The notes under the pieces: generated by a model | Databases searched by the model: none | Told to the model about the DNA's origin: nothing | What the model saw: only the letters and a program-made list of their open reading frames with translations | Shown: in pieces, positions 21,227 to 35,133 of the stretch | Layout: each line of letters starts with the position of its first letter | How positions within the stretch are numbered: the first letter of the stretch is position 1 | Source of the DNA: Deltaproteobacteria bacterium | Lineage (GTDB): Bacteria; Myxococcota_A; UBA796; GCA-2862545 | Assembly (NCBI GenBank): GCA_007693595.1 | Contig: REDI01000041.1 | Span: forward strand, 1 to 64,000 | Length of the DNA stretch: 64,000 bases | Reading direction: 5' to 3' | Program-made: the position numbers and the translations under genes

Positions 21227-22234
21227 TCAGCCTTCGCGCCAGTCCTGTGGACTGCTGGGGGCGTTGTCGAGGACGCCTTCGATGGCTTGAAGGACCTCGT
21301 CGGTGAGCTTGGGGAGCAGGTCCACCGCCTTCATGTTCTCGACCACCTGATCGGTGCGGGAGGCGCCGGTGATCACGGTGCTGACGTGGGGGTGTCGGGC
21401 GGCCCACGCGATGGCGAGCTGGGCCATGGTGCCGCCGAGGTCATGAGCGATCTCGGTGAGGGCCTTGACCTTGTCGACCTTGGCCGGAAAAGTGGGATCG
21501 TTGAGGAGGCGCTCGCGGAGCCAGTCGTAGTCGGGCAGACTGAGCCGCGATCCCTCGGGCACGCCATCGTTGTACTTGCCTGTGAGGAGGCCGCTCGCCA
21601 GGGGGCTCCAGGTGGTGGTCCCCAGCCCCTTGTCTCGCACGAGTGCGGCGTACTCGACCTCGACCCGTGCGCGGTGGAACATGTGGTACTGGGGCTGCTC
21701 CATGAGCGGTCCGATGAGCCCGAGCTTGTCGGCGACCCGCCAAGCCTCGCGGATCTCTTGAGCGCTCCACTCACTCGTGCCCCAGTAGAAGGCGTAGCCC
21801 CGGTCGATGACGTGGTTCATCGCACGCACCGTCTCTTCGATGGGGGTGTGGAGATCGGGGCGGTGGCAGAAGACCAGGTCGAGGTGGTCGAGCTGGAAGC
21901 GCCGGAGTGCGGCCTGAACGCCCTCGACGATGTGCTTTCGTGAGAGGCCCCGCTGGTTTGGCTCCTCGCCTCCCCAGAAGATCTTGGTCGAGACGGTGTA
22001 GCGATCGCGTGACCACCCGAGCTGCTTCAGCGCTTCTCCCATGACCTCTTCGGACTTGCCGCCCGCGTACACCTCGGCGTTGTCGAAGAAGGTGCATCCG
22101 GCATCGAAGGCGGCGGCCATCGCCTCGCGGGCGGGACCGACTCCGAGCTGGCGGTCGAAAGTAACCCAGGATCCGAAAGAGAGGACGGGCACTTTGAGGC
22201 CTGAGCGGCCGAGGTAGCGGTGAGGCATGGACAT
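21227..22234 (-). CDS. Aldo/keto reductase (Kv-beta/YghZ-like)
   Basis: 335 residues, TIM-barrel NADPH oxidoreductase. The catalytic tetrad is visible: Asp and Tyr in FFDNAEVYAGG, Lys in VSTKIFWGG and His in LVFCHRPD. The nucleotide-binding C-terminal part contains VITGASRTDQVVENM. It resembles potassium-channel beta-subunit-like reductases such as YghZ, which reduce aldehydes like methylglyoxal. The substrate is not deducible. The ATG at 22234 has GGAG five bases upstream. It is 11 bp after the M23 peptidase gene. Confidence 0.9.
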   Translation of the reverse strand: MSMPHRYLGRSGLKVPVLSFGSWVTFDRQLGVGPAREAMAAAFDAGCTFFDNAEVYAGGKSEEVMGEALKQLGWSRDRYTVSTKIFWGGEEPNQRGLSRKHIVEGVQAALRRFQLDHLDLVFCHRPDLHTPIEETVRAMNHVIDRGYAFYWGTSEWSAQEIREAWRVADKLGLIGPLMEQPQYHMFHRARVEVEYAALVRDKGLGTTTWSPLASGLLTGKYNDGVPEGSRLSLPDYDWLRERLLNDPTFPAKVDKVKALTEIAHDLGGTMAQLAIAWAARHPHVSTVITGASRTDQVVENMKAVDLLPKLTDEVLQAIEGVLDNAPSSPQDWREG

Positions 22235-24896: not shown

Positions 24897-26246
24897 TCAG
24901 GAGCGTAGACGTGACCCCCTCTCCAACACCTCCTCGACATGCTCCCGCAGACCGCCCTCGAAGCGGTCGGCGAAGCGGCTCTCGAGGATGCGCGCGCGCA
25001 CGCGCCAGCGGCCAGGCTCCTGCTCCTCGCGAATCATCTGCGGAGGCAGGGGGGCTGCCCAGGGTGAGACCAGCACGGCGTCTTCGATGACCCGGCGCAC
25101 GGCGCTCGGCGGGTGATGCGTCGGGACCAGGAGCTCGAACTCGAGGGTAGGCCAGCGACCCCTATCGGTGATCACCGCGTCGCGAAGGAGGGCCCGGTTG
25201 GGGATGGTGACCTGGCGTCCTGTCGCGTCGCGGATCCGCGTCACGCGCAGGGTGGTCTGCTCGACGATACCCGAGGCGATCGCCGTGGAGATCCACTGGC
25301 CGGGCCGGATCCTCCGCTCGGCGGCGAGCACCAGTCCTGCGACGAGGTCCGGGAGGAGGTCCCTCCAGGACCATCCCGCAGCCAGCGCTGCTCCAATCAC
25401 GATGATGGGGAGCGCGGGCTCGAGGTTGGAGGGCACGATGGCACCGATGACGCCGATGACAAAGAAGATCGCGCCGATACGCAGCCCGTGCTGAACTGCG
25501 CGGATCGCCGTAGGGAGCACGCCATTCGCGGCTAGGCGATCCCGAAGAGGGTTGAGGAACTGGGCCAACGCCCATGCGATGATGGCGATGAACGCGAGGA
25601 AGATCCCCCAGGCCCAGCCGCGAAGGACGATGCGGGGCATGAGCGCGTCGGTGGCCTCGCGGACCCCATGCAGAGGCGAGGTTGTGGGAACCTCGGCTGC
25701 CTTGGAGTCTTGTCGGTGCGGATCGGGCTCGGGCGCTAGCAGTGGGGGCTCGATCGTGGGGGGAGAGGGGGTTGCGGCCTCTGAGCTCGAACGCCCATCC
25801 TTGGCAGCCGGGGCCTCGCCGTCCTGAGCTTTGGGGGCGGGCTCCGCGCTCTCGGCGGACGGCGGGGCCCCTTCGACGCGGTCCTCAGGCTCCACAGACG
25901 AGGGCTCTTCGGCGTCGGCCTCGGGCTCTTGTGGGCCTTCCCCGACCGCCTCCTCTGGCGCTTCGCGCTCCACCGTGGTCGCCTGCTCCTCGCCGTCCAA
26001 CTCGTCGTCATCCAGCTCGTCGCCGTCCAGCTCGTCGTCATCCAGCTCGTCGCCGTCCAGCTCGTCGTCATCCAGCTCGTCGTCATCCAGCTCGTCGCCG
26101 TCCAACTCCTCGCCTTCTTGGTCGTCCGCGTCTCGCCCCTCGCCATCCTGTTGCTCGGCGTCGTGTGTCTCCACCGCCTCCGGGCTCGGTTCGTCTTCGA
26201 CGGCCAAGGCGGGAGAGAACACGAGCCACAAGAACAGCGGGATCAT
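24897..26246 (-). CDS. MscS-family mechanosensitive channel with acidic repeat N-terminus
   Basis: 449 residues. A signal peptide (MIPLFLWLVFSPALA) is followed by about 170 residues of Asp/Glu/Ala/Pro-rich sequence containing tandem DELDD/DELDG pentapeptides. Three transmembrane helices lie near 200-300. The MscS beta domain follows (GIVEQTTLRVTRI, then VTIPNRALL). MscS channels release solutes on hypo-osmotic shock. The ATG at 26246 overlaps the stop of the antiporter-ATPase gene (ATGA), so this is the last gene of the potassium cluster. The acidic N-terminus would lie in the periplasm and is not part of the usual channel. Confidence 0.88.
   Translation of the reverse strand: MIPLFLWLVFSPALAVEDEPSPEAVETHDAEQQDGEGRDADDQEGEELDGDELDDDELDDDELDGDELDDDELDGDELDDDELDGEEQATTVEREAPEEAVGEGPQEPEADAEEPSSVEPEDRVEGAPPSAESAEPAPKAQDGEAPAAKDGRSSSEAATPSPPTIEPPLLAPEPDPHRQDSKAAEVPTTSPLHGVREATDALMPRIVLRGWAWGIFLAFIAIIAWALAQFLNPLRDRLAANGVLPTAIRAVQHGLRIGAIFFVIGVIGAIVPSNLEPALPIIVIGAALAAGWSWRDLLPDLVAGLVLAAERRIRPGQWISTAIASGIVEQTTLRVTRIRDATGRQVTIPNRALLRDAVITDRGRWPTLEFELLVPTHHPPSAVRRVIEDAVLVSPWAAPLPPQMIREEQEPGRWRVRARILESRFADRFEGGLREHVEEVLERGSRLRS
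25998..26102 (-). repeat. Tandem 15-bp repeat, seven units, coding
   Basis: Seven copies of a 15-base unit (CAGCTCGTCGTCATC or its CAGCTCGTCGCCGTC variant on the + strand), with a degenerate eighth copy to about 26117. They encode the pentapeptide series inside the MscS-like protein. Variants alternate partly in pairs, so copy-number change by slippage or 30-base duplications is plausible and would stay in frame. Confidence 0.9.
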
Positions 26247-29200
26247 TCGGTCCACCCCCGCTCAGCCAAGACACGCGCCAGCGGCCCTTGTAGGTGCATG
26301 GCGACCGCGTAGCCCTGCGGGACCCGGACCAGCAGGCCGAGGTGGGCGAGGTGACCGAGGTGAGCCTCGGCTTTGACGAGACTGGAGCAGAACAACCACG
26401 CCTGACACTCGACCGTCATGACCCCCTGACGGGTGACCTGCCGGAGGGTGAGGAGGTCGTCGTCGGGGAGCTGGCGAAGGGCGGCCAGCGGCGGGGAAGG
26501 CACGTCGCCGATGACGATCACTCCGCGATCTTCGTCGATGTGGGCGATGGAGGCCATCCAGAGCTGGAGGCCGTCGTTGAGCAGTCCTCCGGTCGCGGCA
26601 TGGATCTGAAGGAACCAGGCCTCGCGCTCGCGATCGACGCCGTGGTTCGATGGCTGAAGCAAGGAGCGGACCTTCCAGGACAGGCTGGGTCGATTCTGAA
26701 AGTCGAGGGTGTAGCCGCTCATGCTGTGTCGGGCCGTGAGGGCCTGCGCGAGCGCTTTGGGGGGAAGGGGCTGGATCTCCACGATCTCGGCGAAGGCGTC
26801 TTGGAGCTCCGCGACTCGGTTGGCAAAGCGCCACAGCGGAGTGTGAGCCTGGACGAGCCAGCGGTTCTTGCCTTCGTCTTGGACCAGGCCGCGGGTGAAG
26901 GCGCGCAGGGCCTTCATGCCCCCTGGCTCCATGGAGAAGAGCCATTGAAAGCCCTCGATGACGACGAGACGATCCTGTGCGTCGCCCTGGAACCACTGCT
27001 CCACCTCCTCCTCGGTCGCGAAGTCGGTGAGTTGGATTCGAACCACATTCCGGGTATCGACCTTGCGAACCAAGGTGTTGGCGATCGCGCGCTTTCCGAC
27101 CCCCGCGGGCCCGACCAAGGCGACCGACCGCAGCTGTCCCCCGGCCTCGCCGTCGAGCACACGGCGCGCGCGGTCGAGCTCGGCGCGTCGGCCGATCAGA
27201 AGGTCGCCGGCTTCCATCGCGATGTCGCTGAAGAGCCGCCGGTAGACGAGGGGCAGCCCTTCGGGCACCGGGGCGGCCGCGAAGGAGCTCGGGGCGGGGC
27301 GCTGCTCGATCGCGCGGTCGGGTAGCCCCAAGAAGCTCTCTGCCCGACGGATCCCCTCGCTACCCAAGGCGCCTTGCAGGACTTCCCCTGCGGCATCGCC
27401 GGCGGCCTGGAGCACCCCACCCAGGCCCCCTGCACGGTTCATCATGCGCCGTCCAGCTGCGGCCTCGCGCACCAGCCGGAGGCGGAGCTCCGAGATCTGT
27501 CCGTCATGAACCTGGACCCGGAGCTTTTCGAGCTCCCCGACGACCCCTTCCTTCACGCCCTCAGCGGCTCGTTCGCCCCACCCTTCGAGCAGCTCGGCCT
27601 GCTCGGTGAGTCGCGTTCGGGATCGGCCGAGGTTCCCGAGCACCATGTCGTGGACCAGCTCCTTGGTCGACTCAGGGATCTCGCCGTCGATTAGCTCAAG
27701 CTCGCCGGTCGCCAGCTCGAGGTTGAACGCGACCAGCCGATCGAAGTCCTCGAGGGTCGCCACCAGCGTATCGGCCTCGGAGGCCAGGGAGCGGGTGAGC
27801 TCGGCGAGTCTCTGTGTGATGGTGGTCTCGATGAAGACCTGCACGACGTCGCGGAGCGGAACATCGGCGGTGGGAACCTCGGGCGGTAGGGCCCACTCGC
27901 CGGAGGGCTCGGGGCCTACGGGCACGGTGTAGCGCTCCGTGAGGTCGCGCGATGCCGCGATCAGTGCATCGACCAAGGCGCCGAGCGCGTAGTCGTCGGC
28001 CAGGAGCTGTCGGAGCTTGCTCGCAGATCGGGCGGCGTCTTCTGAGATGTGCTGCAGCGCCGTGCAGGCATCCCGCAAGGATCGGGCGAGGGTGGCGGCC
28101 TCGTTCTCGCGCTCCATGATGTCGGCGACCGAGACGAGGGTATCGCGGAGGGCGCTCCCAACTCGCGCGAGTTGCGTGTTGCCCTTGCCACGCACGTTGC
28201 GAGCGAGCTGTTCCCCATGTTGTGCGACGAGATCGGTCACTCTTCCCTCGAGCTTGGCGAGCTCTAGATCGAGGGCCAGCGCGGTAAACCGCCCGCTGAC
28301 GTCCTGGCGCGCGCGGCCCAGGCCCCGGCTGAGCAGCTTGACCCCCTGGGTTCGCTGCCGAAAGACCCTGCTGTATCGGCGAGAGCTGCCACGTAGGTCG
28401 AGGGTGTTCATGCGGGGGAGCTCTTCGATCCACTCCCGGTAGGTTCGACCGAGGATGCGTGCGGTCCGTAGGACCCCCTCGTGCTGGATGGCCGAGAGCT
28501 CATCGCGGGCGAGGGCGAACTCCTCTTCGATGTCCTGTCGGATCTGGGTCAGGAGCTCGTCGTGTTGCGAGATCGCCTGACCCTCGGGAGGGTCGAGGGT
28601 GGCGAGCGCGTCGTAGCCGTGATTGATCGCGTGAAAGAGGCTGCGGGTGCGTCGGTGGAGGTGTTGATCCGCGCTCACGAGCAACGCGGCCAGGCCCTCG
28701 AGGCGTGCGGGCACCAGCCCGACGAAGTGGTACCGCGCGAGGAGCTGCACTTGTACCGCGCGCTGGGGGGGCTTACCGCCCAGCAGACTACTGAGCTTGA
28801 ACCAGAGCTTGAAGGCACCCCGAAGCAGCGCCAGCCAGCCTGACTCCTCCTCGGGGCCCATGAAGGTCTGGGGCTCGTAGGGCACCACCACGGTCTCGGG
28901 GAGGCGGTTGACGGCATCTTCGATGGCCTCGACGAGGTCTAGAGGGCTCCAGCCGGGCTGCGAGATGTCTGAGGCGCGGGCGAGCACGGCGTCGCGCCAT
29001 CGGTCGGCGAGGATCGCGGTCTCGGACCGGATCCTGGGCGCCATGTCGGCGCGACCGTCCTGGGCAGCGACGGTGAGATGGCGGTGGTGTCTGAGGAAGT
29101 CCTTGCGCAGGATGTTCAGATAATCTCGGGCCTCTTCGACCCAGGCGCTCAGCGCGGCGCTCTCGACGTCTTGAAGGAGGCTCTGGAGCTCTGCCTTGAA

Positions 29201-30880
29201 GTCCTCGCTCAGGGAGCTGAGGGACTCCGCGGCGTAGCTTGGGGCAGGTGGCCAGGGATCTTCGACGCCCTCAGGCGGCCGCCAGATCTGGAGGGGCTCG
29301 GTGGACCGTGCCTCGAGGGACTCGGGCTCCTCCACTTTGGGGCTGGTGGTGCTCGGCAGCTCGCCGGCCATGCCCAGACCTGTCTTGAACAGGACGGGTC
29401 CGATGATCTCGTGGATGGCCACCCCAGCGATCGCGAGATCACGCAGGGCGACCCCCACATCGCCGAATCGGTCGGCCATCAGGCCAGCCAGCGCGATGGC
29501 GATCCCTGCTTGCGAGACGAAGCCCATCCAGGTGTAGCGCTGGATCGGCTCCGAGGACCCCACCATCCGGGTCGCGCCTCGGATCCCCAAGTAGACCCCC
29601 GCTCCGCGAAGGAGAACCAGCCCGGCCACGAACGGGGCGAGGGTCACCAGGCTGTCGAGGTGCAGGCTCGCCCCCGCTAGGGTGAAGAAGACGACGTAGA
29701 CGGGTAGTCCGAGCTTCTCGACCTCGTGGATGAGCTTGTCGCCTTCTTCGCTGAAGTTGGTCGTGGCGAATCCCGCCGCGATACACATCAGGGTGCTGTC
29801 GAGACCGGCGGCGGTTCCGACGTAGGCGATGACAAAGATGAGCGAGACGAGGAAGAGCAGGATCTCGACACGGACGAACCGTAAATAAGCGGCGATCCCG
29901 AAGCCGACGAGGGTGCCGAAGACCAGAGAGCCGCCGACGTGCCAGACCAGCGAGAGCGTGAACCGGCCGACGCCTGTTGATTCTCCTGCAATCTCGTCCG
30001 AGAGATCCGCCCCGCCCGCGGAAGCCACGAGCGCGGCGGGGTCGATCCAGCCTGTGGCGATCGCGCCGAAGATGCTGAAGAGCAGCACGATCACGACCTC
30101 CATCAACACCACCGCTGAGAGCGAGGTCGTGGTGACGGGACCCTCGGCGCGGGTGCTGGTGATGACCGCGACGGTGGCGGCCGGAGAGGTCGCGATGGAG
30201 ACGATGGCGAAGACGGTGAGCAGGAGCAACATGCCGACCGGGTCGAGCTTGCCCAGTGCGGCCTCTTCGGTCCCGAGGAAGGGTAGCGCCAGGCCTGGCC
30301 CCAGCACGCCGCCGATCGCCAGTCCAAAGAGGGCCATCATGGCGCCGACGGCAAAGAAGTGCCCGCCCATCACTGCGAGGATGTCCTTGAGCCCTCGACG
30401 CAGGCTCTCGAGCTTGAGCTCCCCGCCGGCGGTCAACGCGATGAGGGAGACGGCGAGCGTGTTGAAGATCGCGAGCTGACCCACCACACTGTCGTTGAGG
30501 ATGCCTTCGTCGAAGGGGGGAGGGAGCTGGCTGCCTCGAGGAAGGACGGCGAGCAGCGGGCCCGAGAGGGTCTCGCCCAGCCAGGGCGCGAGGGTGGTGG
30601 GTCCCTCGGCGACGGCCCAGCCGAGCGCGCTCGCGGCAGAGCCACCGAGCACGAGTCCCGCGACGAGGTAGCCCGTGATGTGGGGCAGCTTGATGGCGCC
30701 CACGATCTCGCCGAAGGTGTAGGATGCGAGAACTACGAAGCCCAGCGCCAGCATGGCGGTGGGGTGGAGCTCGTGCCCGGTGACCCCGAAGCGGTGCAGC
30801 AGCCACATCGCTCCCAGTAGCACCATGACGATGGCTACTTTTCGGAGGACGTCCGTGTTCTCGGAGCTGTGCGAGGCCAT
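26243..30880 (-). CDS. CPA2/Kef-type cation:proton antiporter fused to helical region and P-loop ATPase
   Basis: 1545 residues. Residues about 10-510 form a multi-pass Kef/Na-H exchanger-type membrane domain (DPVGM, TSPAATVAVI, repeated hydrophobic helices). About 560-1200 is charged, helical and coiled-coil-like without known domain. A P-loop NTPase follows, with Walker A GPAGVGKR near 1252 and Walker B LVVIEG near 1303. The last ~100 residues look like a winged helix. Kef systems normally end in a NAD-binding RCK domain, which is absent; the ATPase takes its place. It sits between TrkH and MscS genes, with gaps of 3 bp and -4 bp. I infer a nucleotide- or partner-gated K+ (or Na+) exporter. 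Confidence 0.88.
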   Translation of the reverse strand: MASHSSENTDVLRKVAIVMVLLGAMWLLHRFGVTGHELHPTAMLALGFVVLASYTFGEIVGAIKLPHITGYLVAGLVLGGSAASALGWAVAEGPTTLAPWLGETLSGPLLAVLPRGSQLPPPFDEGILNDSVVGQLAIFNTLAVSLIALTAGGELKLESLRRGLKDILAVMGGHFFAVGAMMALFGLAIGGVLGPGLALPFLGTEEAALGKLDPVGMLLLLTVFAIVSIATSPAATVAVITSTRAEGPVTTTSLSAVVLMEVVIVLLFSIFGAIATGWIDPAALVASAGGADLSDEIAGESTGVGRFTLSLVWHVGGSLVFGTLVGFGIAAYLRFVRVEILLFLVSLIFVIAYVGTAAGLDSTLMCIAAGFATTNFSEEGDKLIHEVEKLGLPVYVVFFTLAGASLHLDSLVTLAPFVAGLVLLRGAGVYLGIRGATRMVGSSEPIQRYTWMGFVSQAGIAIALAGLMADRFGDVGVALRDLAIAGVAIHEIIGPVLFKTGLGMAGELPSTTSPKVEEPESLEARSTEPLQIWRPPEGVEDPWPPAPSYAAESLSSLSEDFKAELQSLLQDVESAALSAWVEEARDYLNILRKDFLRHHRHLTVAAQDGRADMAPRIRSETAILADRWRDAVLARASDISQPGWSPLDLVEAIEDAVNRLPETVVVPYEPQTFMGPEEESGWLALLRGAFKLWFKLSSLLGGKPPQRAVQVQLLARYHFVGLVPARLEGLAALLVSADQHLHRRTRSLFHAINHGYDALATLDPPEGQAISQHDELLTQIRQDIEEEFALARDELSAIQHEGVLRTARILGRTYREWIEELPRMNTLDLRGSSRRYSRVFRQRTQGVKLLSRGLGRARQDVSGRFTALALDLELAKLEGRVTDLVAQHGEQLARNVRGKGNTQLARVGSALRDTLVSVADIMERENEAATLARSLRDACTALQHISEDAARSASKLRQLLADDYALGALVDALIAASRDLTERYTVPVGPEPSGEWALPPEVPTADVPLRDVVQVFIETTITQRLAELTRSLASEADTLVATLEDFDRLVAFNLELATGELELIDGEIPESTKELVHDMVLGNLGRSRTRLTEQAELLEGWGERAAEGVKEGVVGELEKLRVQVHDGQISELRLRLVREAAAGRRMMNRAGGLGGVLQAAGDAAGEVLQGALGSEGIRRAESFLGLPDRAIEQRPAPSSFAAAPVPEGLPLVYRRLFSDIAMEAGDLLIGRRAELDRARRVLDGEAGGQLRSVALVGPAGVGKRAIANTLVRKVDTRNVVRIQLTDFATEEEVEQWFQGDAQDRLVVIEGFQWLFSMEPGGMKALRAFTRGLVQDEGKNRWLVQAHTPLWRFANRVAELQDAFAEIVEIQPLPPKALAQALTARHSMSGYTLDFQNRPSLSWKVRSLLQPSNHGVDREREAWFLQIHAATGGLLNDGLQLWMASIAHIDEDRGVIVIGDVPSPPLAALRQLPDDDLLTLRQVTRQGVMTVECQAWLFCSSLVKAEAHLGHLAHLGLLVRVPQGYAVAMHLQGPLARVLAERGWTE

Positions 30881-30883
30881 GGG

Positions 30884-32446
30884 TCAACGCTTCCAGAAGT
30901 CAGGGAGGAAGAGGGCGAGCAGCGTGAAGAACTCAAGCCGGCCGACGATCATGGCGGCGGTGAACCAGAGCTTGGCCAAGTTGCTGTAGTCCGAAAAGTT
31001 GTCGGCGGCTTCAGGGTCGATGTTGGTCAGCCCGACTTCGTGGAAGGGAGCAGGGCCCATGTTGGAGAGCGTCGTGAGCATCGCGCCGAAGGCCTTGGGT
31101 ACGCTGACTCCGTCGGTCACGCCGACAAGCCCGATCCCGAACAGCATGAGGAAGGCGTAGATCGCGAGGAAGGCCGAGACGTCGAGCACGAGGGAGGGGT
31201 CGATGGGCCGGCCATCCATGCGGAGGACCTGCACGACGTTCGGGCGAAAGCTCTGCCGCACCTGCGCCCAGACGAGCTTGGCGGTCACCACGATGCGGAC
31301 GATCTTGATCCCGCCCGCGGTGGAACCGGCCGATCCGCCGATGAAGAGCAGGAAGATCATGGTGATGATGCCGACGGTTGGATAGTGTCGATAGCCTTCG
31401 ATGCTGTACCCAGTCGAGGTGATCGAGGTGGCGGTGGTAAACAAGCCCTGCCGGAAGCTTGCGAACAATGTGTCCCAGCCCGGAGCGGCCCACCAGACGG
31501 AGGCCCCGATAATCAGGGTCGCGCCTGCCACGATGCTCAGGTAGGCTCTGAGCTCTGTGGAGCGCCAAGCGGCTCGGAGCGATCGGGTGCGCAACACAGC
31601 GAAGAAGATGGCATAGTTCATGCCGCTCAGCAGGATGGTTGCCACGGCCGTCCACTCGATGGCCAGGCTGTTCCACCACCCGACTCTCTCGGCATCGAAG
31701 CCCCCAAGGGAGCTGTCGAGGGTGGAGAACCCCCCGGTTGGCATGGTCGTGAAGGCGTGGCAGACCGCTTCGAACCAGGTCATCCCGAAGAGTTTATAGA
31801 GCAGGATCACCACCAAGGTGAGCAGCACGTAGAGTTGCCACAAAACACGTCCGGTCTCGGCGATCCGAGGCTGGAGCGAGGTGACGGTGAGCCCTGGTGC
31901 CTCGCTGCGATACAGATGCCGAGCCCCAACCCCGATGTTGGGAAAGATGGCGACGAAGAGGACGATGATACCCATGCCTCCGAACCACTGGGTCAGAGCG
32001 CGCCAGAGCAGGGTCGGCCGGGAGAGAGTGCCTTCGATGTCGGAGACCACCGTAGAGCCCGTGGTGGTGAACCCGCTGATGGCCTCGAACAGCGCGTCCG
32101 CCGGGCCCATGCTCGCGTCGAGAACGTAGGGTAGGCCCCCGAGCATTCCGCAGAGAATCCACATCACGGAGACGACTAAGATGGCCTCACGACGCCCCAG
32201 GGCGGCGCCTGCTGCGTGGCGGCCGTAGACGAAGAGCGCGCCACCGGCCGCGAGCGTAAGCATGCCCGAGAGCACCAGGCCCACCGCCGCACCCTGATCC
32301 TGGGGCCGCGTGCCCCCCTCGGTCCAGGTCCACAGCGGAGCTGAGAGGGCGCACAGCAACATGCTGATCCCAAGCCCGATAGAGATCGCGCCGACAGGCC
32401 GGGCCACCGCCTGCTGCAAGGTTACCGCTGGCGTGGTTGGCTTCAT
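30884..32446 (-). CDS. trkH: TrkH-type potassium uptake channel subunit
   Basis: 520 residues, polytopic. The four pore-loop repeats of the TrkH/KtrB superfamily are visible: FTTTGSTVV, FTTMPTGGFST, TSITSTGYSI and a terminal LSNMGPA. GSAGSTAGGIKIVRI matches the superfamily signature around the third pore region. It is the K+-translocating pore and needs the TrkA protein, encoded 19 bp upstream, for gating. The next gene starts 3 bp after its stop. Confidence 0.93.
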   Translation of the reverse strand: MKPTTPAVTLQQAVARPVGAISIGLGISMLLCALSAPLWTWTEGGTRPQDQGAAVGLVLSGMLTLAAGGALFVYGRHAAGAALGRREAILVVSVMWILCGMLGGLPYVLDASMGPADALFEAISGFTTTGSTVVSDIEGTLSRPTLLWRALTQWFGGMGIIVLFVAIFPNIGVGARHLYRSEAPGLTVTSLQPRIAETGRVLWQLYVLLTLVVILLYKLFGMTWFEAVCHAFTTMPTGGFSTLDSSLGGFDAERVGWWNSLAIEWTAVATILLSGMNYAIFFAVLRTRSLRAAWRSTELRAYLSIVAGATLIIGASVWWAAPGWDTLFASFRQGLFTTATSITSTGYSIEGYRHYPTVGIITMIFLLFIGGSAGSTAGGIKIVRIVVTAKLVWAQVRQSFRPNVVQVLRMDGRPIDPSLVLDVSAFLAIYAFLMLFGIGLVGVTDGVSVPKAFGAMLTTLSNMGPAPFHEVGLTNIDPEAADNFSDYSNLAKLWFTAAMIVGRLEFFTLLALFLPDFWKR

Positions 32447-32465: not shown

Positions 32466-33809
32466 TCAGAGTACCCTTCGCTGGAAGAGACGCTGGATCG
32501 CGGGTCGAGCCCGCTCGGTCGCGAGCACGATCACCGTGTCCCCTTCTTCGATGATGTTGTCTCCGCGGGGGATCGTGAGCTCTTTGTCGTTGACGATCGC
32601 CGCGATCAGCGCGCCGCGGGGAATGCCGAGGCGGCGGAGCGGAACGCCCAGCGCGCGGCTACCCGCGGTGGCGACAATCTCGAGTACGTGGGCCTGGCCG
32701 CCCTCGAGCTCGGTCAAGCTCTTGATCTCGGTCGCTCGCGTGTAGCGGAGAATGTGGTCGCTGGCTGCGATCCGAGGAGACAGCACGATGTCGATGCCGA
32801 GCTGCTTATAGATCTCGAGATAGTCGGGACGATGGACGACCGAGATCGTTCGTTTGGCACCTGCGCGCTTGGCCAGCAGGCACGACATCAGGTTGGTCTC
32901 GTCGTCGTCGGTGGTGGCGACGAATAGGTCGTAGGCGCCGACGTTCTCTTCGCGAAGCGAGACGAGGTTTGTGCCGTCTCCTTGGATGACCGTGACCTTC
33001 GGGAGCTCTTCTGCCACGGAACGAGCCCGCTCCGCGTCTCGCTCGAAGAGCATGACCCTCGTGCCGTCGTGACAGAGCTGACGGGCCAGGGTCGTGCCGA
33101 TGACCCCGCCGCCGATGACGGCGGCGCTGCGGGCCTCGCGCGTCCCGGTGAACAGGTCCTCGGCCCGCTCGATGTTCTCGCGTCGACCGAGCAGGTAGAT
33201 CCGGTCGTTGGCGCGTAGGACATCCGCGCCACCGGGTACGGAGAGCTCACCATCTCGTACGATCGCCGCGACCAGGGTGTCTTTGGGGAGCTCAAGCCGA
33301 GAGAGGGGCTTCTTGAGCAGCCGACAGTCCGTACCGAGCTCCATCTGGACGAGCTCGACGCGATCATTCGCCAGATCGATGACCTCGAGGGCGCCGTGAG
33401 AACGCGCCACTTTCGCCATCTCTTGGCTGAGCAAGAGTCTTGGATTGACGACGACATCGACCCCGAGCAGGCCGTAGCTCACCCCCTCCCGGCGGTCCGA
33501 CCAGGCCGCGCCTTGGACCCGCGCGACCACCTTCTTGGCGCCGAGCTGCTTGGCAGCCAGGGCCGTGATCAAGTTGATCTCGTCGTTATCTGTCACCGCG
33601 ACCACGAGATCGGCCTTGGCGACCCCGGCTTCCCTCAAGATGTTCTCGTTGGCGCCGTAGCCGACGAGGGACATGACGTCGTGGTGCTCCTCGATCTCTT
33701 GGATGACCTGACGGTCCTCGTCGATCACCACGACATCGTGGCGCTGCCAGGCCAGGGTTCGCACGATGTGTCGGCCCACTTGCCCGATTCCGACCACGAC
33801 TACATACAC
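32466..33809 (-). CDS. trkA: TrkA potassium uptake regulatory subunit
   Basis: 447 residues with two tandem RCK modules. The first Rossmann motif is GIGQVGRHIVR at residues 6-16 with acidic DEDRQ at the end of strand 2; the second is IGGGVIGTTLARQL near 225. Each is followed by a TrkA-C domain (VAAIVRDGELSVPGGAD; AIVNDKELTIPRGDN). It binds NAD(H)/ATP and gates TrkH at the inner membrane face. The GTG start lies one base after the upstream antiporter's TGA. Confidence 0.93.
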   Translation of the reverse strand: MYVVVVGIGQVGRHIVRTLAWQRHDVVVIDEDRQVIQEIEEHHDVMSLVGYGANENILREAGVAKADLVVAVTDNDEINLITALAAKQLGAKKVVARVQGAAWSDRREGVSYGLLGVDVVVNPRLLLSQEMAKVARSHGALEVIDLANDRVELVQMELGTDCRLLKKPLSRLELPKDTLVAAIVRDGELSVPGGADVLRANDRIYLLGRRENIERAEDLFTGTREARSAAVIGGGVIGTTLARQLCHDGTRVMLFERDAERARSVAEELPKVTVIQGDGTNLVSLREENVGAYDLFVATTDDDETNLMSCLLAKRAGAKRTISVVHRPDYLEIYKQLGIDIVLSPRIAASDHILRYTRATEIKSLTELEGGQAHVLEIVATAGSRALGVPLRRLGIPRGALIAAIVNDKELTIPRGDNIIEEGDTVIVLATERARPAIQRLFQRRVL

Positions 33810-33810
33810 C

Positions 33811-35133
33811 TCAGCCTCCGGGGTTCTCGTCTTTGATGTCGCCGGTGTCGACCAGTAGGCCCTTGAGGATACGCGGCGCCACCACCTCGTGCACGATCAC
33901 CCCGATGAGGATCGCGGTATAGGTGGCGTCGATGGCGTCATGGGCGTAGTCTTCCAAGATCCCTGGCATCAGGGCCACGTCGTAGACCAGCTTGAACGAC
34001 ACCGCCATCGCGATCGCCACGTCGCCCTGGCCCACCATGCCGCGGAAGATGTCTCGACGAAGGGTGGTGCCCATCGAGGCGACCATCCCCGAGAGGATCT
34101 TCCCTCCAAGCCGGACGCCCAAGACGACCAAGGTGAGCAGGGCGGTCAGGAGCAGCGGAGGCGGTGTCCACATCGCTCCGGCCAACAGCAGCAGGAGGAG
34201 GGTGATGGGGCGATAGGTGCCTTCGATGGATCGGCGGACCTTGTCCCCCGACTTGGACACGTTGATCAGCACCATGCCGAGCACGAGGTTGATGGTGAGG
34301 CCTGAAAGGTCGAGGAAGAAGGCGGCGCCAGAGGCGAAGGCGATGATGCCGGTCAGCGCGAGGAGCGAGCCGGTGTCGCTGTCGTCTTCGTCGAGGAACC
34401 ACGAGAAGAGCGCTCCGAGGGCTGCGCCCAGCCCCAAGGTGATCACCACCCACTCGACCTCGGTAGGCAGGCGGCCGAGGGGAGCGTCGCTCGAGATCTC
34501 GGGAACGGCGACCCCGTGAAAGACCGCGAAGAGGACCCCGAAGGCGAGGATGGCGAAGAAGTCGCTGAAGCGTGCGGCGCGCACGAGGGTGTCGAGGAAG
34601 GAGCCGCCGACGCTGTAGCGCCGCCGAACGACGTCCATGGCCGAGGTGGAGCCGGCCCAGGCCGTGACCCCGAGCACGCCCGCGCTGAGCATGAGCGCGG
34701 CGTGACTCTCGTCGGTGGCGCCTGGGTAGAGGACGTTGAAGATGCCGTAGCTCGCCAGCGCGACGGGGGCGGCGGTAACCAGGCCCTCGATCACCGCGAG
34801 TCGCAGCGCTCCGTCGCGGCGCTCGAGCAGCGAGGAGGCCCGGATGCTCATGCCGTAGATGAGCCCGATCCAGCCCGCGGCGAGCGCGATGAGAGGAGCG
34901 ACGACCGCCAGACTCGACAAGGGCTCGGGCCAAGCGATGAGCCCGAGCAAGGCGGCGTCGGTGACCGGCTCACGACCCTTTGTGGGCAGGATCAACATGC
35001 CTATCAGCACGCCGAGCAGCAGGTACTCGATGCTGGTGGAGATGAGGAAGGTGCGCTGGAGCCAGTCGACGACGAAGTGGGTGAGCAGGTAGGCCGCACC
35101 GATCACCGCGATGAGGAGCACGACCACGGTCAA
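33811..35133 (-). CDS. CPA-type cation:proton antiporter; real start may be an ATT at 35223
   Basis: At least 440 residues, about 11-12 transmembrane helices, Na/H-exchanger-like (GLTINLVLGMVLINVSKSGDKV). It lacks C-terminal regulatory domains. It is the first gene of the potassium cluster. The TTG at 35133 used here has no ribosome site. Reading further upstream in frame gives 30 more codons without a stop that form a classic signal sequence (RHLASATLTLAALWPLPAAA). These begin at an ATT (35221-35223) four bases after GGAGG; the next upstream in-frame stop is at 35236. ATT starts are rare but known (infC, pcnB). A CTG inside the leader is another option. Confidence 0.85.
   Translation of the reverse strand: MTVVVLLIAVIGAAYLLTHFVVDWLQRTFLISTSIEYLLLGVLIGMLILPTKGREPVTDAALLGLIAWPEPLSSLAVVAPLIALAAGWIGLIYGMSIRASSLLERRDGALRLAVIEGLVTAAPVALASYGIFNVLYPGATDESHAALMLSAGVLGVTAWAGSTSAMDVVRRRYSVGGSFLDTLVRAARFSDFFAILAFGVLFAVFHGVAVPEISSDAPLGRLPTEVEWVVITLGLGAALGALFSWFLDEDDSDTGSLLALTGIIAFASGAAFFLDLSGLTINLVLGMVLINVSKSGDKVRRSIEGTYRPITLLLLLLAGAMWTPPPLLLTALLTLVVLGVRLGGKILSGMVASMGTTLRRDIFRGMVGQGDVAIAMAVSFKLVYDVALMPGILEDYAHDAIDATYTAILIGVIVHEVVAPRILKGLLVDTGDIKDENPGG

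Follow-up and report, generated by a model that had tools for sequence, protein, structure and literature searches.

Nucleotide-binding control of CPA antiporters is exerted by the RCK domains of KefC and by the C-terminus of KEA3 (PMC11150392, PMC10981695), and MscK, a K+-dependent channel of the MscS family with a periplasmic domain, ties K+ to tension (PMC9653487). Work on how bacteria coordinate K+ import, the exchange of cations and emergency release usually deals with separate systems, and one operon in the window analyzed here, a 64,000-nucleotide stretch of contig REDI01000041.1 from a Deltaproteobacteria bacterium, unites all three. The operon consists of five minus-strand genes arranged nearly without gaps and encoding a CPA-like antiporter, TrkA, TrkH, a fusion protein and an MscS channel. 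The fusion (gene 4, 26243-30880) is one intact open reading frame of 1,545 amino acids running on the minus strand from an ATG at 30880 to a TGA at 26245-26243, which confirms the coordinates and length given in an earlier note that left the strand unmentioned. The same note recognized the ion-transport setting but mentioned neither the Trk/CPA/MscS operon nor the MscS partner that is almost always present.

Gene 1 (33811-35133) encodes a second CPA-like antiporter of 440 amino acids that has no regulatory domain, here called CPA440. CPA440 is paralogous to residues 344-519 of the fusion (27% identity, E 4e-8) and itself has zero Pfam matches; a homolog at locus L096 matches PF00999 with 48.7 bits, and in relatives the corresponding gene is the first of the operon. 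Gene 2 (32466-33809) encodes TrkA with two RCK units (NCBIfam TrkA equivalog over its cut-off; two Pfam TrkA_N and two TrkA_C matches), and gene 3 (30884-32446) encodes the K+ uptake subunit TrkH (PF02386, 182.8 bits). The product of gene 5 (24897-26255) is an MscS channel (PF00924, MscS beta domain, 54.2 bits) with a signal-like N-terminus and then an acidic repeat tail, and an MscS ATG at 26246 shares bases with the fusion stop codon in the sequence ATGA at 26246-26243. A 15/30-nt tandem repeat at 25985-26114 encodes the acidic tail (DDELDGDEL...). An aldo/keto reductase-like reading frame (21227-22234, minus strand), which may resemble voltage-gated K+ channel beta subunits, lies some 2.7 kb further downstream. 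A search of the window's own genome, which is 98.4% complete, identified the operon TrkH as the sole TrkH and found no Kup or KdpA, which makes this operon the likely main route of K+ uptake in the organism.

Most contigs of sufficient length, also in distant families of the phylum, preserve the order CPA-TrkA-TrkH-fusion-MscS, and a type II variant carries two antiporters without Trk genes between them. Bare antiporter pairs lacking the C-terminal domain of the fusion occur at loci L050 (2052-4624, minus strand) and L051 (4303-6902, plus strand); in both, one antiporter resembles CPA440 and the other resembles residues 1-522 of the fusion, pointing to a pair of antiporters as the probable origin of the fusion. 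In the order, 26 of 63 genomes contain a match. Full-length fusions of about 1,500 amino acids recur, their parts in unchanged sequence, in about 20 of its genomes and in other phylum families, arguing that the architecture is not a product of chance. A single-protein scan of genome contigs returned zero relatives.

Four parts make up the fusion, all on the minus strand: a CPA antiporter fold (residues 1-522, 29315-30880), a long cytosolic helical arm (residues 523-1195, 27296-29314), a STAND/AAA+-like P-loop domain with lid (residues 1196-1480, 26441-27295) and a winged helix (about residues 1470-1545, 26246-26473). We refer to residues 1196-1545, comprising the P-loop domain and winged helix, as the A domain. 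The arm, recognized from its composition and from modeled helices of up to 89 residues, spans about 670 amino acids and corresponds to the charged-helix region of about 650 residues that the earlier note had described.

The antiporter assignment draws on a family profile, Pfam matches in homologs and an AlphaFold model (pLDDT 82.6, pTM 0.81). Pfam Na_H_Exchanger (PF00999) is matched by 13 of 16 homologs (best 3.8e-25) and not by the window fusion itself, perhaps owing to insertions that are absent from its relatives in the alignment. The family profile matched NHE6, NHE9 and NapA in the PDB, and structural comparison of the model gave Z 30-32 against SOS1, NapA and NhaP1 and Z 24 against KefC. 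The fold is thus that of a CPA antiporter as previously proposed, whereas the label "Kef-type" is not established: the CPA1 proteins SOS1 and NhaP1 tie with the CPA2 protein NapA, and KefC scores lower. Neither TrkA_N nor TrkA_C of Pfam matched the fusion chain, which by this measure contains no RCK/KTN domain. The antiporter part carries an SPAAT motif at residues 232-236, and the acidic residue of the TM5-like ion-binding motif is E261 in LMEVV, with Asp at this position in most relatives. In a sub-clade including loci L037-L040 the TM5-motif Asp is replaced by Asn (NN), and the antiporter part there may no longer transport. We do not claim complementary loss of the acidic residue between the two CPA proteins, which would hint at heterodimers, as the counts fit independence (one locus lost both, about 1.3 expected).

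The A domain scores below cut-off for Pfam AAA_16 and just above it for AAA_5, and its predicted structure (pLDDT 85.4) comprises an AAA+ core, a lid and a winged helix. Foldseek returned RuvB and ORC/Cdc6 as top matches, many AAA+ proteins scored at Z 14-15 in a structural comparison, and the winged helix in homologs gives MarR/TrmB-type matches, bearing out both the STAND/AAA-like label and the C-terminal winged-helix-like domain proposed from sequence. Of 377 genomes from the phylum, an A-domain profile detected the domain in 128; a 9-row alignment of A recovered 14 loci with organism titles, and the window copy had no match on plasmids in PLSDB. Contigs of relatives are labeled mostly as Myxococcota or Deltaproteobacteria MAGs, with a few named "proteobacterium" or "Oligoflexia".

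The N-terminal parts of 99 A genes are CPA antiporters in 52 cases and something else in 47, two of the latter (L052, L054) being contig fragments of CPA fusions. Four loci instead join an SLC12-type (NKCC/KCC) cotransporter to the A domain, each followed by MscS (L106 5233-10458, minus strand; L175 2974-8481, minus; L176 4074-9203, plus; L180 1-4704, plus), and at the two loci tested the cotransporter part matched SLC12 with E about 1e-60 and amino-acid transporters with E about 1e-8. A third form begins with a signal-like sequence and contains a long helical or coiled-coil part that looks periplasmic, together with several transmembrane segments. An origin of this form from MscK was considered and rejected, its N-terminal part having no Pfam or PDB match and zero sequence matches to MscK structures. 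At L136 the A protein has no predicted transmembrane segment and sits between TrkH and MscS. Homologs of the A region outside antiporter fusions, for which the earlier note had proposed a search, therefore exist in cotransporter and periplasmic coiled-coil forms and in one with no predicted membrane part.

An MscS domain lies directly after the A gene in 88 of the 92 loci (out of 99) with at least 900 nt downstream, a count over related and hence non-independent loci. Chance would place MscS after an A gene in about 0.2% of cases (7 MscS genes among roughly 4,500 genes, the latter our estimate rather than a count). The four exceptions are L092, with MscS slightly further off, L103, with MscS 2.2 kb away, L105 and L132. 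Two of the seven MscS genes in the window's own genome follow A genes. The second A protein of this genome (L059, 5329-9785 on G000:C97; 1,201 amino acids) also precedes an MscS gene. It begins with a signal-like sequence, has a helical part that looks periplasmic and transmembrane segments, and lacks both an antiporter and, in its A domain, the Walker A Lys. N-terminal parts have been swapped while the MscS partner stayed, though the loci are related; together with the L136 protein, in which no membrane part is predicted, the cotransporter fusions indicate that A domain and MscS form the constant part and a volume-relevant transporter the variable one.

We propose that the operon encodes a turgor module in which the A domain links transporter and MscS as a switch or scaffold, an explanation to which we give about an even chance. 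Trk would take up K+, one or two CPA antiporters would swap cations for protons, and MscS would release ions under tension; turgor control is suggested because a single unit combines uptake and exchange with release driven by tension, and because its kinds of transporter set cell volume in other organisms. The arm and A domain would act as a cytosolic coupling element that physically ties the antiporter to the MscS channel of the adjacent gene. Ancestrally the A domain would be a nucleotide switch, with bound nucleotide or its absence setting the position of the arm so that transporter and channel activity are tuned jointly, and in many descendants, perhaps partly including the window copy, its action would need no hydrolysis and would rest on binding or scaffolding. 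We infer the physical contact between A domain and MscS, the direction of regulation and the role of nucleotide. Gene adjacency may instead reflect only co-regulation, and L103, L105 and L132, where no MscS gene is adjacent, count against the coupling, as does the possible loss of transport in the Asn sub-clade (L037-L040).

The nucleotide-binding motifs bear directly on this proposal. On the minus strand the window copy carries an hhGRxxE motif (LLIGRRAEL, 27176-27202), a Walker A motif (GPAGVGKR, residues 1257-1264, 27089-27112) that keeps the Lys and lacks the next Ser/Thr (GPAGVGKR-A), and a Walker B-like VVIEG (residues 1306-1310, 26951-26965), so that both Walker sequences named earlier are located; the GxP motif is absent from this copy, which has GGLLNDG at that place. 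Across 99 A domains, GxxxxGK is kept in 70 and gone in 29, canonical GK[ST] occurs in 40, an acidic residue occupies the Walker B place in 84 and Pro the GxP place in 57, and the GRxxE form is found in 20. With GxxxxGK retained in 70 of these domains, selection seems to act on the P-loop across much of the family. On a tree of 79 A domains, for which the tool inferred no root, the Walker A state changes a minimum of 14 times at scattered positions, and intact copies occur in both main branches, which makes an intact P-loop the likely ancestral condition. Judged from these motifs, including the GxP or hhGRxxE motifs present in many members, nucleotide binding by the A domain may be ancestral; the ancestor plausibly had a nucleotide switch, and nucleotide control is plausible for it and for many relatives. 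The many losses of Walker A mean that a nucleotide role cannot be general. P-loop loss tested against membership in the Trk-linked class gave Fisher p 0.13 under one grouping and 0.05 under another, and we claim no association.

The best-surviving rival to the turgor module holds that the P-loop domain replaces RCK and gates the antiporter by binding and hydrolyzing ATP, with MscS a mere neighbor. GxxxxGK and an acidic Walker B residue persist in the window copy, and nucleotide-binding tails control CPA antiporters in KefC and KEA3 (PMC11150392, PMC10981695), both in favor of an ATP gate. However, we consider this gate unlikely: the window copy has no Ser/Thr, only 5 of 29 CPA+Trk members have GK[ST], the Lys motif is lost in 13 of those 29, and the A domain exists without an antiporter yet nearly always with MscS. 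ATP hydrolysis by the window copy is doubtful, and the motif losses combined with its missing Ser/Thr imply that hydrolysis cannot be the general gate. Of the ATPase gate first proposed for this protein, the P-loop domain stands and a general hydrolysis gate does not, with GK[ST] in only 40 of 99 A domains; the loss of Walker motifs in relatives that was expected to count against it is partial, affecting GxxxxGK in 29 of 99 and sparing it in 70. Next in our ranking, and likewise unlikely, is a pseudo-ATPase scaffold that in the window's clade never senses nucleotide and clusters antiporter, Trk and MscS. At least 14 Walker A state changes on the tree, GGLLND in place of GxP and the missing Walker A Ser/Thr of the window copy are consistent with such a scaffold, but GxxxxGK is kept in 70 of 99 A domains, including most of those outside the window's order.

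Heptamers are known among STAND-type assemblies, and MscS itself is a heptamer. In a bolder and less probable version of the coupling proposal, a ring of A domains would dock under the MscS cage while the arms tie transporters to one channel, forming a supercomplex of a class not known before and common to the antiporter, NKCC/KCC-like cotransporter and periplasmic-sensor forms, in which one nucleotide- or ion-sensitive switch would set ion uptake and exchange as well as the tension threshold of release. Quite improbable is a membrane-tethered transcription regulator with its winged helix on DNA and a membrane part that senses ions: RuvB and ORC, which match the fold, use a winged helix on DNA, and the C-terminal winged helix resembles MarR/TrmB, but STAND and AAA+ proteins often have a winged helix without DNA binding, and fusion to transporters with constant MscS adjacency fits protein-protein coupling better. 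A defense role is unlikely, and very much so the stress- or infection-triggered ion release device suggested earlier, read here as abortive defense: a STAND-like switch does stand beside a channel, but the window protein matches no PADLOC family, no sensor repeats were seen, and the operon is conserved across families and includes the sole TrkH, a position that fits housekeeping turgor control. Among relatives, weak PADLOC matches fall on the winged helix at L100 and L176, with one at L100 on the P-loop side.

The turgor module remains our preferred reading, and its parts can be set beside described systems. Searches of Pfam, NCBIfam, PADLOC, the PDB and open-access literature returned no description of the fusion or of the A-MscS system, and hence no known family with this architecture, whose existence the earlier note had named as one of two things that would refute its reading. 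Like Trk/Ktr systems gated by TrkA/KtrA rings, the operon contains a normal TrkA-TrkH pair; to our knowledge the fusion is an extra component absent from described Trk systems. The A domain shares with STAND and ORC-Cdc6-RuvB AAA+ proteins its fold, the lid-winged helix order and, in most members, the P-loop, but it is membrane-fused and MscS-linked, with GxP and Walker A degenerate in the window's clade. Four relatives bear a transporter of the SLC12 (NKCC/KCC) type in place of the antiporter, here fused to arm and A domain with MscS next. As in KefC and KEA3 (PMC11150392, PMC10981695), the CPA module carries at its C-terminus a cytosolic regulator of the nucleotide-binding kind, but the regulator of the fusion is a STAND/AAA+ domain and winged helix on a 670-residue arm rather than RCK, it is paired with MscS and Trk, and its P-loop is gone in many members. 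The third A form resembles MscK in its signal-like start, periplasmic-looking coiled coil and transmembrane segments, whereas the channel here is a separate MscS gene and an A domain is added. The A domain is an apparent connector of three kinds of volume-relevant membrane protein with almost always the same channel family, and if the link is physical it would allow coordinated turgor control to be tested directly and would represent a new, non-RCK route from cytosolic state to antiporters, cation-chloride cotransporters and mechanosensitive channels. Every fold in the system is known, and across the phylum genomes and open-access literature covered here, their combination and the constant MscS partner appear to be new.
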